Shown: positions 19,124-27,552 of the stretch, one piece after another
How the letters are laid out: each line of letters begins with the position of its first letter
Position numbering within the stretch: position 1 is the stretch's first letter
Virus record (IMG/VR): IMGVR_UViG_3300045107_000476
Location: 1-31,811 of that record
DNA length: 31,811 nt
DNA from: a virus
Strand: one strand, 5' to 3'
The notes under the pieces: generated by a model
Database searches by the model: none
What the model was told of the DNA's origin: nothing
Seen by the model: the letters and a program-made list of their open reading frames with translations, nothing else
Made by a program: the position numbers and the translations under genes

Positions 19124-20368
19124 CTATCGGGTCCTCCGTGACGACGGTGTTTTCGATCGAACGCGCGGCGCGGCGACCGGCTTCGCGGGCTGGAGATCCT
19201 CAACGTCGGTGAGCGGCTCCGGCTCGAGGCCCGTGAACTGCGCCCAGCGCTCGACGCAGGCCTGGGCGCGGCGCGGGTCCGGTTCCATCGCGTAGCAGGT
19301 CCGCCCCAAGGCCTCGCACGCGATGATCGTGGCGCCGGCGCGCGCGCCCGGATCGGCCACGGTGCGTGCGATCGCCGGCGCCGTGGTGTGGAGCAGCTCC
19401 TTCGCGAGCTCGAACGGCATGTCGTCGCCGCGGCGGGCCACGCGCACGACGTCGCCGTGCGCCGGCGTTTGCGGGAACGAGACCTTGCCCTTCGTGACGC
19501 ACGCGACCAGCTGATGCTGATGAAGCCAGCCGCGGCCGCCCGTGACCGTCTCGGTGTCCCACACGATCTGGGCGCGCGTGTGGTACCCGCGGCCGGCGGC
19601 CGCCTCCGTCACGAGCGACCAGCGGTCCCACGGACCGACCACGTAGGCCAACGTCGGCCGCCAGGCGTCGAAGACGGCTGACAGCAGCGCCTGGTAGTCT
19701 CGGGCTGGCACGTCCCCGGCCAGGGGCTCGGTGAGCATCACGTCGATCGGCTCGCCCCGCAGCAGCTGATTGATGCTCGCGCGGTCCGTCGGCTGAGCAC
19801 AGAGCAGTCGATGGTCGCCGAGTGCGAAGAGATCACCGCGCTTCAACCATGGCTTCTCGGCCAGCGGCGGCGCGTCCGCAGAGCCGTGCTGCTTATCGAG
19901 ATTCGCTACCAGGTCCTCGACGTCGGACGGATCGAACCCGACGCCGCCGAGGCCGGCTTCGCTCTGGCTGCCAATCGCGAGGAGCAGATCTTTCAACTTC
20001 GGTTCGTCCCAACCGCCGGCGATGGTGGCCTGGTTGAGCGCGACGGTGGCGGCATCGAGCTCGCGGTCGTTCTTCGAGGCCCACCCGCGCGCGACCGGCA
20101 CCAGCCACATGCCGTCGGCGCGCACGCGGATCCCCTCCGGGACCGGCTCGCGGCCGAGCATCATGCCGTGCAGCGTCTTCTGACGACCGTGGCCCGCCGC
20201 AATTCGGCCGGTGCGCTCACACAGCACGATCGGGTCGACGAACCCGAAGCGCTTGATCGCGGTGTCGATCAGGCCCACATCGTGGTCCTTCGAATTGGCC
20301 GGCCAGCCGAGCAGCTCGTCGAGCGGCATGTACTCGATGCGCCGCTCGTGACGGTCATTCACGGACAC
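19124..20368 (-). CDS. ParB-domain protein fused to a degenerate DNA-methylase-like domain
   Basis: A 414-residue protein. Residues 1-65 follow the ParB/Srx core (GWPANSKDHD at 21-30, FGFVDPIVL, AGHGR at 58-62), as seen in many phage methylase fusions. Residues about 175-375 follow an N4/N6-type DNA methylase: KRGDLFALGDHRLLC (176-190), then MLTEPLAG at 211-218 where TDPPYG is expected, and VADPGARAGATIIACEALG (337-355) where the usual DPFGGSGTT motif sits, followed by GRTCYAMEPDP. So the catalytic Asp-Pro-Pro-Tyr and the SAM-binding GGSG are both changed while the surrounding frame is kept. It is probably a DNA-binding or regulatory protein rather than an active methylase. The C terminus is basic. 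Confidence 0.8.
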   Translation of the reverse strand: MSVNDRHERRIEYMPLDELLGWPANSKDHDVGLIDTAIKRFGFVDPIVLCERTGRIAAGHGRQKTLHGMMLGREPVPEGIRVRADGMWLVPVARGWASKNDRELDAATVALNQATIAGGWDEPKLKDLLLAIGSQSEAGLGGVGFDPSDVEDLVANLDKQHGSADAPPLAEKPWLKRGDLFALGDHRLLCAQPTDRASINQLLRGEPIDVMLTEPLAGDVPARDYQALLSAVFDAWRPTLAYVVGPWDRWSLVTEAAAGRGYHTRAQIVWDTETVTGGRGWLHQHQLVACVTKGKVSFPQTPAHGDVVRVARRGDDMPFELAKELLHTTAPAIARTVADPGARAGATIIACEALGRTCYAMEPDPRRAQACVERWAQFTGLEPEPLTDVEDLQPAKPVAAPRVRSKTPSSRRTR

Positions 20369-23251: not shown

Positions 23252-23400
23252 ACCTTCAAGGCTTCCTGAAGGAGTCGCTCTCGTTTCGCGATCGCGACGT
23301 GCGCTCGCCGCAGGCGATCCTTCGACGTCGTGCGCTTCAACACGCCGGCGTAATACGCGATCTCCCGCCGCAGCTGCTCGGGCGTCTTGATGTCGGCCAT
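23101..23400 (-). CDS. Short helical protein, probable N-terminal part of a frameshifted gene
   Basis: ATG 23400 opens a helical segment: MADIKTPEQLRREIAYYAGV, then a Lys/Arg-rich helix ending RERLLQEALKV. From about residue 50 the translation becomes Ser/Gly/Thr-rich and loses protein-like character, and here the RusA-like protein is encoded in another frame. So the real N-terminal product is about 50 residues, either a separate small protein or the N terminus of the RusA-like protein after a one-base correction. It follows the loader gene after 26 bases. Confidence 0.5.
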   Translation of the reverse strand: MADIKTPEQLRREIAYYAGVLKRTTSKDRLRRAHVAIAKRERLLQEALKVRRASSSGSPGVSSPQTGTVGTTGACGTATGTSGSSSCSPPRRVTGAAGA

Positions 23401-23426
23401 CCCTCTCCCCCTGCGACGCGCTCATC

Positions 23427-24113
23427 TCACCACCGGTCCGACAGGCGCTGATCGTCACCGCAGATCTCCGTCACTTCCCTCGCCTGGCCGGCGATCCGGC
23501 TCGCCAGGCGCTCATCGCCGTAAAACGTGGCGAGCTCCGACAGCCGCAGGTTCGACGTCCAGATCGTCCGTTTGCCCCGGTCGACGCGCTGGTCGTAGAG
23601 CGTCACCATCACGCGTCGCGAAAAATCACTCGCCGCCTCGGCGCCCGCGATGTCATCCAGACAGAGCGGGTCCGCCTCGAGGCACCGATCGATGAGGGCG
23701 TTTGCGTCGGCCCGCTTCTCCCCGTCGTCCATCCCCTGCAGCTGCAGGAGCATCAGGTACGGCACGCGGACGAACAGGCCGTTGACCTCGCCTGCATCGA
23801 AGGCTTCGTTCAGCAACGTGCACGCGAGCCGGGTCTTGCCGACGCCGACGCCGCCGACCAGGAACAGGTCCGACCGCTTGTGCGACAGCCACTCGTACGC
23901 GGCCTTGAGCGCCGGGGCATTCCCTGGCCACTCGCGGTAGTTGCCGAGGCGCGCCGCCTGAAACGTAAACGGCACACCCTCGGCCCAATTGCGTTGCTTC
24001 CGGACCCAGCAGTCGCAGCGCGTGGCGCGTGAGACGCCGTTCACCTCGATCGACTTCCAGCCGCTGCCGTCGCAGCGCTCACAGACCGGAGCCGCCGTTG
24101 CGTTTCTTCCCAT
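23427..24113 (-). CDS. DnaC/DnaI-like helicase loader
   Basis: A 228-residue AAA+ ATPase that would load the replicative helicase at the phage origin. The start ATG 24113 has a GGAGA site and lies in the last 35 bases of the initiator gene. The N terminus carries a zinc knuckle, CERC (11-14) and CDC (33-35), as DnaI and related loaders do. The ATPase core has Walker A GGVGVGKT at 87-94, Walker B LCLDDI at 150-155, the sensor-1 strand TIWTSNL, and a likely arginine finger in the ASRI stretch. Length matches the family. No replicative helicase gene is seen in the window, so it probably uses the host's. Confidence 0.9.
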   Translation of the reverse strand: MGRNATAAPVCERCDGSGWKSIEVNGVSRATRCDCWVRKQRNWAEGVPFTFQAARLGNYREWPGNAPALKAAYEWLSHKRSDLFLVGGVGVGKTRLACTLLNEAFDAGEVNGLFVRVPYLMLLQLQGMDDGEKRADANALIDRCLEADPLCLDDIAGAEAASDFSRRVMVTLYDQRVDRGKRTIWTSNLRLSELATFYGDERLASRIAGQAREVTEICGDDQRLSDRW

Positions 24114-25269
24114 CCTCGTCTCTCCTGATGAGCGCGTCGTATCGGCGCAGTTTCTCCGGCGTGGCCTGCACGCGACCGGCCGCAGCGTTCGGGCCGTTCG
24201 CCGCGCGGGCCGGTGACTTGGGCGCCGCGCTCGGGAAGGCCGCGGCGAAGTGCGCGCGCCAGAACTCGAACGGGCTATCGCCAATCGGCTGGTCGTCCGG
24301 GATCGCGTCGAGGACGCGGTCGTAAAACGCGCGCAGCGTGCGCTCGGCCGCCTGCTCGGTGCCGCCGACCTGGCGCACGAACTGGTGATGGAGCTGCAGC
24401 GGGACGCACACGCGGCCGCACGGCGCAAAGCACCGGAGGTGGTCGCGCGGCAGCTGCCCGTCGAGGGTCGAGGGGCCCAGGAGCGCCGGGTTCGTCCGCG
24501 GCCGCGGCGGGACGACGCCCATGAGCGGCAACCGGCTCGCCGGTGCCAGGCCTCGCGCGCGCGCGCGATCTGTGTGTGTGTCTTGATCGATCGAAGGAGA
24601 GATCTTGGTACTAACTACCGGATCGGTAGAAGGATCACCTAACAGTACATCGCGTTCTGTTACGTTCTGCCGTAACGTCCTGTTACGTTCTGGCTCGACG
24701 CCCTGAGAGGTTTCGCCCCGCTTGGCCTGGCGGTCGGCACGCCGTTTCCGGCCGCAGGGCACGCAGACGATCTGCAAGTTGTCGTCCTCGTCCGAGCCGC
24801 CGTCTTCCTTGGGCGTCTTCCGTTCGAGCTCCAATTGAAGGACCGAACCGCAACGGCAGCAACGAGATCCGTCTCGGTCGGCGATGCGTTGAAAGCGGCG
24901 CTCCCGGTAGTCCTGCTGGCGCTCGGCGTTCGTCTTCGCGTCGTGAAAACGTTTCGAGCGCCGGGCCAGCGACGGAAAGAGGACGAGACCTTTCGCCTGC
25001 CACAGCGTCTTGTCGATGTGACCGACTTCCGCACATTCCTGCAGCAATCGGTTCAAGTAGGTCACGGTGCTGCCCACCTGCCGTGCCATGTATTCCCGAT
25101 CGAATGGCTGTCCGCTCGTATCTACCGCCATACCCGGCTTCGCCCCCTTCCGCGCCACGAGGGCCCAGAGACGTACCAGCACGCCGACACCCCGGTTGTC
25201 GAACACCCGAACGAGTCGTTCAATCTTCGGGTCGCTGTCGAAGTAGACGTCGACCTCAATCCACCGCAC
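24079..25269 (-). CDS. Replication initiator / replisome organiser-like protein
   Basis: A 396-residue protein from GTG 25269. The first part (VDVYFDSDPKIERLVRVFDN, VGVLVRLWALVARKG, PFDREYMARQVG) follows the N-terminal winged-helix domain found in phage replisome organisers of the Lin1244/Lin1753 type. A middle segment has an HNH-like zinc pair (CCRCGS ... CVPCGRKRR at about 133-173), and a low-complexity linker separates this from a helical C-terminal part. It is followed directly by the DnaC-like loader, the classical order of an initiator gene. Within the gene (24657-24692) lie repeats that may be the origin, as in lambda O. Assignment rests on order and the N-terminal pattern; the zinc motif is unexplained. 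Confidence 0.75.
   Translation of the reverse strand: MRWIEVDVYFDSDPKIERLVRVFDNRGVGVLVRLWALVARKGAKPGMAVDTSGQPFDREYMARQVGSTVTYLNRLLQECAEVGHIDKTLWQAKGLVLFPSLARRSKRFHDAKTNAERQQDYRERRFQRIADRDGSRCCRCGSVLQLELERKTPKEDGGSDEDDNLQIVCVPCGRKRRADRQAKRGETSQGVEPERNRTLRQNVTERDVLLGDPSTDPVVSTKISPSIDQDTHTDRARARGLAPASRLPLMGVVPPRPRTNPALLGPSTLDGQLPRDHLRCFAPCGRVCVPLQLHHQFVRQVGGTEQAAERTLRAFYDRVLDAIPDDQPIGDSPFEFWRAHFAAAFPSAAPKSPARAANGPNAAAGRVQATPEKLRRYDALIRRDEDGKKRNGGSGL
24566..24653. other. AT-richer stretch beside the repeats, possible unwinding element
   Basis: Within the initiator gene this stretch is visibly less GC-rich than its surroundings, starting with a (TG)n run at 24569-24579 right after a (CG)n run, and including a 15-base palindrome CTACCG-GAT-CGGTAG at 24615-24629. 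Lying beside the repeats, it has the composition and place of a DNA-unwinding element. Inference only. Confidence 0.35.
24654..24694. repeat. Iteron-like direct repeats within the initiator gene
   Basis: CTGTTACGTTCTG occurs exactly at 24657-24669 and 24680-24692, 23 bases apart, each with near-matching flanks. Between them lies CCGTAACGTC, which contains the inverted core GTAACG, and a partial copy CGTTCTG just precedes at 24653-24659. Direct repeats inside an initiator gene are the pattern of lambda-type origins. Only two full copies are visible, so it is not certain. Confidence 0.5.
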
Positions 25270-25390
25270 GAGTCACGCCCCCTCGCTCAAGGATCCCGTC
25301 GACTCGAGGAGGGCCGGAGGGATCGCTCCCGTCCGGTTGGGGCGGCTTCACGCGCCACGCCCAGGCCTGGTCTGATCGCCGTGCTGTCAC
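25256..25390 (-). CDS. Candidate 44-residue protein
   Basis: In the space between the Rad50-like gene and the initiator, a frame opens at GTG 25390-25388, with GGAG six bases before it, and ends in TGA 25258-25256, overlapping the initiator start by 14 bases. It starts MTARRSDQAWAWRVKPPQPD and is Pro/Asp/Gly-rich. The ribosome site and overlap support it; no relatives are known to me. The remaining 86 bases (25391-25476) show nothing clear. Confidence 0.4.
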   Translation of the reverse strand: MTARRSDQAWAWRVKPPQPDGSDPSGPPRVDGILERGGVTRAVD

Positions 25391-25476
25391 CGTTCGCTCC
25401 GTTGGGGAATGCGCGCACCGCGGCGTCCTGGGTTGACGCGGCGGGCACGCGGGCCGTCGACTCGCCCCGCTCGTCT

Positions 25477-27552
25477 CTACGCGTGCGCCAGCGCCGGCTC
25501 GGCGACGCGGGTCAGTCCGTCCTTCAGTTCCAGCTTGTAAATCGCGACGTCGTCCGGCAGGCCGTCGGGCACCTCGTAACGCGCCGGTTCGGTCACCCCG
25601 AACACAATCTGCCCGGGCCAGCCCTCGACAACGTCCGACAAGACCTCGCGGTTGTCCTCGTCGAGCATATCGACCTCATCGATCGCGACGAACCAGAGGC
25701 CGGAGATCTCGGCGATCGCGAGCTGCAGGCAGAGCCCGACGCGCAACCGCTCGGATTTCGACAACTGTGTGAATTTCCGGCCGATGGCGGGCCCACCCTC
25801 GACCCGGACGCGGACCGTCCAGGGGTCGATCGTGAAGGACAAGGCGTACCCCCATTTCGAGAGCGCGGCGTTGACCTTCTGCTCGAAGGTGCCGCGGGCC
25901 TTCTCCAGCGCGTCGACGATCAGTCCCTTGGGCCCGAGCTTCGCGCAGAGCAGCTCCAGCCGGTCGACCTTCGCCTGGAGCGCCGTGCGTCCCTGGGCGC
26001 TCGCCAGATGCCGCGCCTGGTCGGCGTGCCAGGCCCGGACCTGCGCGACGAGCTGCTCGCCGCGCCTGATCCGCTCCTGCAGCGCCTCGAGGCCGACCGG
26101 CTCACTGATCTCACCGAGGTTCGCAATTTCGGTCGCGATCTCGGCGAGCTCGGCCAGGATGTTCGCCTGGCGCTCCTTGTCCTGCTGCAGGTGGCTGATG
26201 GACGCCTGGACTTCGGTCTTCCGCTTCCGGAGCTGCTCGAGCTGCCGCAGCGCGTCGCGCTCGGCGCGCAGGCGCTCCTCGGCTTCGGCCCGGCGCTCGC
26301 GCGCGCGCTGTTCGTCGGCCGACTTGGCTGCGCTGTCCTCGGCTTGGAGAAACGACAGGCGCCGGTCGTTCTCGCTGACCGACTTCTCGAGCGCCTTGAT
26401 CTCCTTCCGAATCGCCGCTAGCTTGCCGCGGAATTCCTTCGCTGGCGTCTGGCACGGGATCGAGCTGTCGAGGACGCAGCCCTTCGCGGGGTCGTGCCGG
26501 TCGATCCCGTCGACGGCCGCGGCGATCATGTTCAACCGGCCCCGTTCGTCGGCGAGCTTCACGCGCAGCGTGCCGATCTCCGTGGTGCGACCCGTCGCCA
26601 CATCATCCGCGGCCTCGGCGGCCGCTGGGGGCTCGGCGCTCGCGGGCTCCTCCACCGCGGCGCCGGCGTCGTCGCCCTCCATCAGCGCCAGCCGCTCTTC
26701 GATTTCATCGAGTGCGCTGTCGGGGTCGCCGTACCGCGCAATCCGGCCCTGCAGATCGTCGCGCTCGGTCGAGAGCGCCGCCTGGCGCTCGAGCAACGCC
26801 TCGCGCTTGCCGCGGGCCTCGGCGGTCGACGCGATCATCTCGCGCTCGGTCGCGCGCAGCGCCTCGAGATCGTGCTGCAGGTCCTCCACGGGCGGCGGCT
26901 CTTCCCCATCGAAGCCTTCCGGCGCCGGATACAGCACATGCTGATCGAGGTCGCGCTTCGCGTCCGTGCGTTCATCGAACACCCGCTTGTAGTGGCGCTC
27001 GCGCTCCTCGAGCGACAGCGGGCCGGCGATGTCGAACGGCTCCAGCTCCTCCGCCGGAATGCGCACGTCGAGCACGCCCATGATCAGATTCTTGGCGTCG
27101 CTGTGGTGCAGCTCGAGGAACGTCGGCGTGTCCAGGCACGCCGCGATCACGCCCTTCGTGGTGTGTAGCTTTTCGAAGAGCGCCGCCTGCTGTTCCTTGT
27201 TCGAACCCGTCCAGTCCTTGACCTTGAGGAAGACCTCGCGGCCGTTGGTCTGACGGACGATACGGCCGAAGTTCTCGATCTCGAGCTTCACGCCGAGGCC
27301 AACCGGCTTCGGGTCGCCCGGTCCACTGCCCTGCGTCAGGGCGGCGACGGCGCCCTCACGGACGATTTCGAGAATGTCGCGGTTGTTGCCGTCCAGGCCG
27401 CGCAGCTCGCCCGAGAGACCCCAGCGGAGCGCGTCGATCACGGTCGACTTGCCGGCATTGTTCGCACCCAGGATCTTGGTGCGCGGTTTCAGCACGAGCT
27501 TGGTGCGCTCGTGGCTGCGGAAGTTGACGAGCTCGATCGACTGGATCCTCAT
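25477..27552 (-). CDS. Rad50/SbcC-like SMC-type ATPase
   Basis: A 691-residue ABC-type ATPase with a coiled-coil arm. The N-terminal strand RIQSIELVNFRSHERTKLVL and Walker A GANNAGKST (29-37) are typical of Rad50/SbcC/RecN proteins, and the C-terminal part has the signature LSKSERL near 596 and Walker B FVAIDEVD near 620. Between are two long helical arms separated near residues 359-367 by Cys pairs (GCVLDSSIPCQ), in the place of the zinc hook but with seven rather than two residues between. Shorter than SbcC, it fits phage versions that clamp or process DNA ends. It would act with the Cas4/RecB-type nuclease encoded just upstream. Confidence 0.88.
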   Translation of the reverse strand: MRIQSIELVNFRSHERTKLVLKPRTKILGANNAGKSTVIDALRWGLSGELRGLDGNNRDILEIVREGAVAALTQGSGPGDPKPVGLGVKLEIENFGRIVRQTNGREVFLKVKDWTGSNKEQQAALFEKLHTTKGVIAACLDTPTFLELHHSDAKNLIMGVLDVRIPAEELEPFDIAGPLSLEERERHYKRVFDERTDAKRDLDQHVLYPAPEGFDGEEPPPVEDLQHDLEALRATEREMIASTAEARGKREALLERQAALSTERDDLQGRIARYGDPDSALDEIEERLALMEGDDAGAAVEEPASAEPPAAAEAADDVATGRTTEIGTLRVKLADERGRLNMIAAAVDGIDRHDPAKGCVLDSSIPCQTPAKEFRGKLAAIRKEIKALEKSVSENDRRLSFLQAEDSAAKSADEQRARERRAEAEERLRAERDALRQLEQLRKRKTEVQASISHLQQDKERQANILAELAEIATEIANLGEISEPVGLEALQERIRRGEQLVAQVRAWHADQARHLASAQGRTALQAKVDRLELLCAKLGPKGLIVDALEKARGTFEQKVNAALSKWGYALSFTIDPWTVRVRVEGGPAIGRKFTQLSKSERLRVGLCLQLAIAEISGLWFVAIDEVDMLDEDNREVLSDVVEGWPGQIVFGVTEPARYEVPDGLPDDVAIYKLELKDGLTRVAEPALAHA

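Follow-up and report, generated by a model that had tools for sequence, protein, structure and literature searches.

A putative phage replication origin with GTTAC-type iterons inside the linker-coding part of its initiator gene

Does a cluster of short DNA repeats in the middle of a predicted replication initiator gene mark the origin of a phage? This question is raised by the IMG/VR virus record IMGVR_UViG_3300045107_000476, which was analysed over its full length of 31,811 bases (here called the window). An earlier note on this DNA had proposed a possible origin inside an initiator gene, a proposal now supported by the repeats, their reading frames, a minimum of DNA stability, the gene order and relatives of the initiator. 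From sequence evidence, we consider it very probable that 24566-24694 is a phage replication origin located within its own initiator gene, in the part encoding the linker. The genes and protein domains concerned are the following:

24079..25269, minus strand: replication initiator gene, 396 amino acids, GTG start
23427..24113, minus strand: DnaC-like helicase loader gene (phrog_50, E 2e-34; IstB, E 2e-10)
24892..25269, minus strand: N-terminal domain (residues 1-126) with a predicted winged-helix-like fold and AERQQDYRERR at its end; proposed iteron reader
24730..24891, minus strand: HNH-like zinc domain between N-domain and linker, best match at residues 137-175, below the Pfam cut-off

The loader gene, recognised as DnaC-like by its phrog_50 match, comes after the initiator gene, as had been noted before, and overlaps its end; a helicase loader encoded beside the initiator is also characteristic of lambda-type in-gene origins. 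Upstream of the initiator, the window encodes RecT, a PD-(D/E)XK exonuclease and an SbcC-like protein. As these genes and the loader flank the initiator gene, the locus can be assigned to an early replication and recombination region. A search with the whole loader protein found no close relatives in viral contigs. Elsewhere in the window (19124-20368), a ParB-like domain is fused to a DNA methyltransferase (phrog_498; phrog_620, E 3e-20).

The initiator protein is composed of the N-domain, the HNH-like insert, a linker encoded by the putative origin and a C-terminal domain. It belongs to the Lin1244_N initiators according to a Pfam match of 26.6 bits (curated cut-off 25), and it also matched the replication initiation protein family phrog_2562 (E 6e-4) and phrog_20981. 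Using hhalign, residues 2-126 including the AERQxxYRxRR motif were aligned to a phage initiator alignment (A6) with an E value of 2.8e-6 and a probability of 88%. When the N-domain was modelled with AlphaFold2 (pLDDT 82), the best structural matches were 4pql, 5kbj and 4pt7, all deposited as initiator or Rep DNA-binding domains, with middling Z values of 7.2-7.4 over 87-88 residues which may reflect a common fold only. 4PT7 and 4PTA are RepA proteins of S. aureus plasmids (PMC7145576). BFVD matches of the same model were Lin1244_N phage proteins (E 7e-4). An alignment of the N-domain matched no PDB sequence, and Foldseek against the PDB returned non-significant matches only, many of them winged-helix proteins. 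The Pfam scan gave Lin1244_N and HNH only; neither Phage_rep_O (PF04492) nor RepA_N was matched by the initiator, and its fold similarity to RepA_N-type initiators is the middling one given above. A survey of 398 genomes from the phylum of genome G003 gave no Lin1244_N match. The whole initiator protein had no close homologue in viral contigs or genome collections, so that conservation of this very site is not traceable.

The repeats, regarded here as putative iterons, are arranged as follows:

24657..24669, plus strand: iteron copy 1, CTGTTACGTTCTG, exact 13-mer
24680..24692, plus strand: iteron copy 2, CTGTTACGTTCTG, exact 13-mer
24671..24676, minus strand: inverted iteron core, CGTAAC on the plus strand
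24639..24645, minus strand: degenerate iteron half-site CTAACAG (reverse complement CTGTTAG); the CP2-type genes described below also have an excess of CGTTAG
24611..24615, minus strand: second degenerate site CTAAC

Two 13-base copies 23 bases apart with an inverted core between them had been reported in the earlier note, and all three elements were recovered, with copies starting at 24657 and 24680 and CGTAAC at 24671. No 13-mer of the window other than CTGTTACGTTCTG recurs within 60 bases, and five of the 12 GTTA[CG]/[CG]TAAC sites of the window fall within 76 bases (24611, 24639 and the three GTTAC cores). Counted by 5-mer starts, the cores are spaced by 10 and 13 bases, about one helical turn. 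The coding strand across the repeats reads GAA CGT AAC AGG ACG TTA CGG CAG AAC GTA ACA GAA, in which the three GTTAC/GTAAC cores encode R-N, T-L-R and V-T, one per reading frame; the two 13-mer copies likewise lie in different frames. With several cores at about helical-turn spacing, in more than one frame and in the linker after the N-domain, the locus belongs to the GTTAC-iteron group; its three exact cores are fewer than in most relatives.

A comparable 13-mer repeat arises with a probability of about 0.001-0.002 if synonymous codons are resampled and the protein is kept. Three GTTACG/CGTAAC sites within 30 bases occurred in 0 of 20,000 simulated genes (synonymous resampling, window codon usage), and three cores in 30 bases at a frequency of 0.00035 upon shuffling of the gene's own codons, the motif of these cluster statistics being taken from the same sequence on which it was tested. 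The GTTAC count of the whole gene alone is not significant (3 versus 1.2, P 0.076, gene's own codon pool); what is unusual is the clustering of GTTAC, rather than its number in the gene. The earlier note had named coding of a repeated peptide as an explanation that would remove the case for an origin. The cores occupy all three frames, and therefore the repeat is one of DNA and not of peptide; in addition, the motif exceeds its synonymous-codon expectation. Another explanation is a coding accident, in which an unconstrained, disordered linker has accumulated chance repeats and AT-rich codons. The linker in a model of a CP2-type initiator is indeed predicted to be disordered (pLDDT below 50), which would leave the peptide free to drift, but which is also in line with a sequence dictated by requirements of the DNA. 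Such an accident is at odds with the different frames, the rare codons and the cluster P value below 5e-5 (synonymous resampling).

Next to the repeats lies a stretch of exceptional composition:

24566..24656, no strand: putative DNA unwinding element, where stability is lowest and AT content highest in the window, with rare codons
24567..24636, no strand: densest GATC cluster of the window, six sites (24567, 24585, 24589, 24601, 24621, 24633)
24615..24629, no strand: palindrome CTACCG-GAT-CGGTAG, read directly from the sequence
24554..24581, no strand: alternating purine-pyrimidine tract of CG(7), ATC and TG repeats, read directly from the sequence

The AT-richer stretch mentioned in the earlier note turned out to be the window maximum at 100 bases (24569-24668, 54% versus about 32%), and the palindrome described within it is present. 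Nearest-neighbour energies over the whole window were lowest at 24566-24685 for segments of 80, 100 and 120 bases, with a mean at 100 bases of -1.34 compared to -1.65 for the window (sd 0.068). The AT content of the segment was reached by none of 20,000 synonymous versions, which again argues against a coding accident. The codon TTA, with a frequency of 0.00 in nine other genes, is used twice in the stretch, GTA, AGG and TCT (frequency 0.03 elsewhere) occur as well, and codons 197-221 are the lowest-adapted 25 among ten genes. The six GATC sites within 70 bases have a P value of 0.001 given the protein, calculated post hoc. Clustered initiator-type repeats inside an initiator gene and an adjoining AT-rich, easily melted tract, both features of lambda-type origins, are thus found here. 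A check of GC skew, which the earlier note had suggested, gave no support, as the cumulative skew drops steadily through the region with no turn. The CG/TG tract adjoining the AT-rich stretch is potentially Z-DNA forming.

Clustered inverted and direct half-sites would also suit a regulator, and iteron-binding initiators often autoregulate. The repeats might hence be operator sites at which the initiator or another regulator controls transcription of the operon, with no origin involved. We consider this unlikely, since the sites are in the middle of a gene, about 575-610 bases inside the initiator gene, and a scan for sigma-70-like sites found nothing promoter-like in 23300-25700. Moreover, operator function predicts neither the adjoining destabilised stretch nor the link with initiator linkers across families.

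The earlier note had also stated that relatives lacking repeats at this place would speak against an origin. Relatives fetched by similarity of the N-domain protein, and not by repeats, carry clustered GTTAC/GTAAC sites in the linker. A sister group has a different repeat in this position. A search with the initiator N-domain of locus L039 yielded 19 loci, many near-identical but distant ones among them, and all 19 contain 6-17 GTTAC/GTAAC sites, which span two or three frames in all loci but one. Named phages reached from this group by tblastn were Rac(442/2) with ydaU (8 sites), the Xanthomonas phages CP2 and Olaya (5) and Pseudomonas phage VW-6S (5). In K-12, the gene called ydaU is not the same one; it is of the DUF1376 type and has only 2 GTTAC.

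An N-domain alignment on the CP2 side collected 80 loci, corresponding to 35 non-redundant genes. All 35 have 4-10 GTTAC/GTAAC sites where 0-1.8 are expected, although these genes share descent and the seeds were GTTAC-bearing, so that they do not represent 35 independent cases; kinship likewise applies within the epsilon15 family. The sites are located in the linker and the N-domain, recur around codons 50-67 and 115-136, use all frames over the set and lie 11-14 bp from their neighbours, mostly 11, 12 or 14. CGTTAC was observed 190 times compared to 40 after synonymous shuffling. The corresponding alignment on the epsilon15 side (80 loci, L207-L286) gave 42 non-redundant genes with no GTTAC clusters and 0-3 scattered sites; instead, they carry GCGGAC (300 versus 79 expected) and TCCGCA (212 versus 50; synonymous expectation, z 26-29), repeats that lie in the corresponding linker. 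In the genes compared, each N-domain type (CP2 versus epsilon15) has its own iteron type, and this covariation supports direct reading of the iterons by the N-domain. The linker also coincides with the least stable 80 bp of the gene in nearly all cases, namely in 32 of 33 CP2-type and 39 of 41 epsilon15-type genes. The same motif at the same place in initiators of other phages largely refutes a coding accident, which is highly improbable.

Two further observations concern these genes. A polypurine AGAAGAGAAGAG tract (peptide REEKRREE) follows the iterons at codons of about 130-150 and exceeds its synonymous expectation in both families (L207-L366); this AGAAGAG tract may be part of the opening element. 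Many initiators (L179-L197) have a second GTTAC cluster in a length-variable loop of the N-domain, codons 28-66. As most of 56 loci with DUF1376-type initiators of bacterial genomes lack GTTAC clusters, the motif is not universal even among initiators of this type. Linkers of the DUF1376 type (L122-L177) were seen to contain other low-complexity repeats (DTDTDT, SQSQSQ, SPSPSP, NHNHNH).

The covariation of motif and N-domain also bears on another explanation, a parS-like partition, packaging or recombination site read by another phage protein such as the ParB-like/methyltransferase fusion of 19124-20368. The window does encode a ParB-like protein (phrog_620), and parS sites are inverted repeats. 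Here, however, several short sites of mixed orientation form an array in place of a single palindrome of 14-16 bp, and the change of motif type with the initiator N-domain points to the initiator as reader, which makes a site of this kind very unlikely.

The recurrence of the motif was also found by DNA alone. A search for a GTTACG/CGTAAC/GTTACG triplet with loose spacing gave at least 119 loci in viral contigs, compared to 49 loci in the whole collection for a scrambled control pattern. Among the matches listed, 35 of 93 covering ORFs belong to phrog_9474 (replication initiation) alone and replication families make up most of the named ones within the 25 commonest; one closely related family accounts for about a third of the listed set. 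Initiators of DUF1376, Phage_rep_O, DnaD-like and other kinds are found among these matches. The control set comprised 36 ORFs; head and portal families were commonest there, and a handful of replication proteins was present. With lambda O as positive control, the top k-mers included parts of its known iteron. Lambda O also has an excess of scattered GTTAC (6), and consequently an unclustered GTTAC excess alone means little. Three matches of the control pattern (L378, L386, L396) encode a protein with IDIDTKSIDIDTK repeats; the six GTATC/GATAC sites there, spread over two frames, may represent a further iteron type.

The sequences themselves establish the repeats and the frames they occupy, a constraint at the level of the DNA, the minimum of stability, the order of the genes, and both the place of the initiator in a phage initiator group and the recurrence of the motif among members of that group; binding, opening, helicase loading and replication at 24566-24694 are what we infer. 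In the proposed mechanism, the winged-helix-like N-domain would bind the CTGTTAC(G) iterons (24639-24692), which follow each other at intervals of about one helical turn. Once bound, the initiator would strain and open the adjacent AT-rich, GATC-rich stretch (24566-24656), and its C-terminal part together with the DnaC-like loader would deliver the host's replicative helicase to the single strands thus exposed.

The HNH-like domain in the same protein raises the question whether the site is a target of an origin-directed nuclease activity, instead of or besides an initiator site. A precedent is Odn of ICP1, a protein with both a RepA_N domain and a nuclease that cleaves at iterons (PMC8263062). 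In a BLASTP alignment to the initiator of Pseudomonas phage P27, which has an intact-looking HNH at the same place and is without GTTAC sites, the four cysteines are kept but the catalytic Asp-His is replaced by Glu-Arg. The protein thus lacks the catalytic His of HNH endonucleases, and because of this replacement the insert is probably not a nuclease; it may be structural or DNA-contacting. Furthermore, the C-terminal part is alignable to the P27 initiator and the loader gene follows. A nuclease target is accordingly extremely improbable, and an initiator-bound origin remains our preferred reading.

Origins inside genes are of an already known kind. As far as the literature searched shows, the GTTAC iteron in several phage initiator families, the TCCGCA alternative in a sister family and the HNH-bearing variant are apparently new; a GTTAC phage iteron was not found in that literature, an absence which does not prove that none exists. 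One can speculate that GTTAC is a common iteron core kept across Lin1244_N, DUF1376, Phage_rep_O, DnaD-like and CP2-type families, its specificity being either very old or set by a shared non-initiator factor, and that in-gene origins come in a few exchangeable iteron types (GTTAC, TCCGCA, others) which decide replicon cross-reaction. We regard this idea as tentative and give it a low but appreciable probability. Most phage origins are unmapped, and if the rule holds that the linker of an initiator gene contains a short DNA motif above synonymous expectation, in several frames and beside the least stable stretch, the origin would be readable from sequence. Sister families with either GTTAC or TCCGCA provide a natural set-up for tests of co-evolution of initiator and origin specificity.

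Among the systems compared, the CP2-, Rac(442/2) YdaU- and L039-type initiators share with the window a related N-domain, an R-rich helix and a multi-frame GTTAC/GTAAC array followed by a destabilised tract. They have 4-17 cores, often a second N-domain cluster and mostly the polypurine AGAAGAG tract, whereas three exact cores, an AT stretch rich in GATC and the HNH-like insert distinguish the window. OriJ of the Rac prophage was reported as an active origin (PMC3945230), which is not counted as evidence here. Epsilon15-type genes have the same gene position, architecture and DNA-constrained linker, but TCCGCA/GCGGAC instead of GTTAC clusters. In plasmid pSK41, an N-domain of about 120 residues binds Rep boxes located centrally in rep, and the ori-encoded peptide is a dispensable linker (PMC5703833). 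RepA_N plasmids of this type share the central boxes in the initiator gene, and the N-domain model matches such initiators best, at a middling Z of 7.2-7.4; the window differs by having no RepA_N sequence match, a phage context with a DnaC-like loader, the HNH-like insert and a different repeat. In lambda and Stx phages, iterons lie in the middle of gene O with an AT-rich tract beside them and the helicase-loader gene next (PMC7466680), an arrangement shared by the window. In lambda, each iteron is an inverted-repeat unit of about 18 bp and the initiator is of the Phage_rep_O family, whereas the window has cores of 5-7 bp in mixed orientation, 10-13 bp apart, and a Lin1244_N initiator. The earlier description of the arrangement as lambda-like holds, as it does for the proposed mechanism; the initiator family and the iterons differ from those of lambda.
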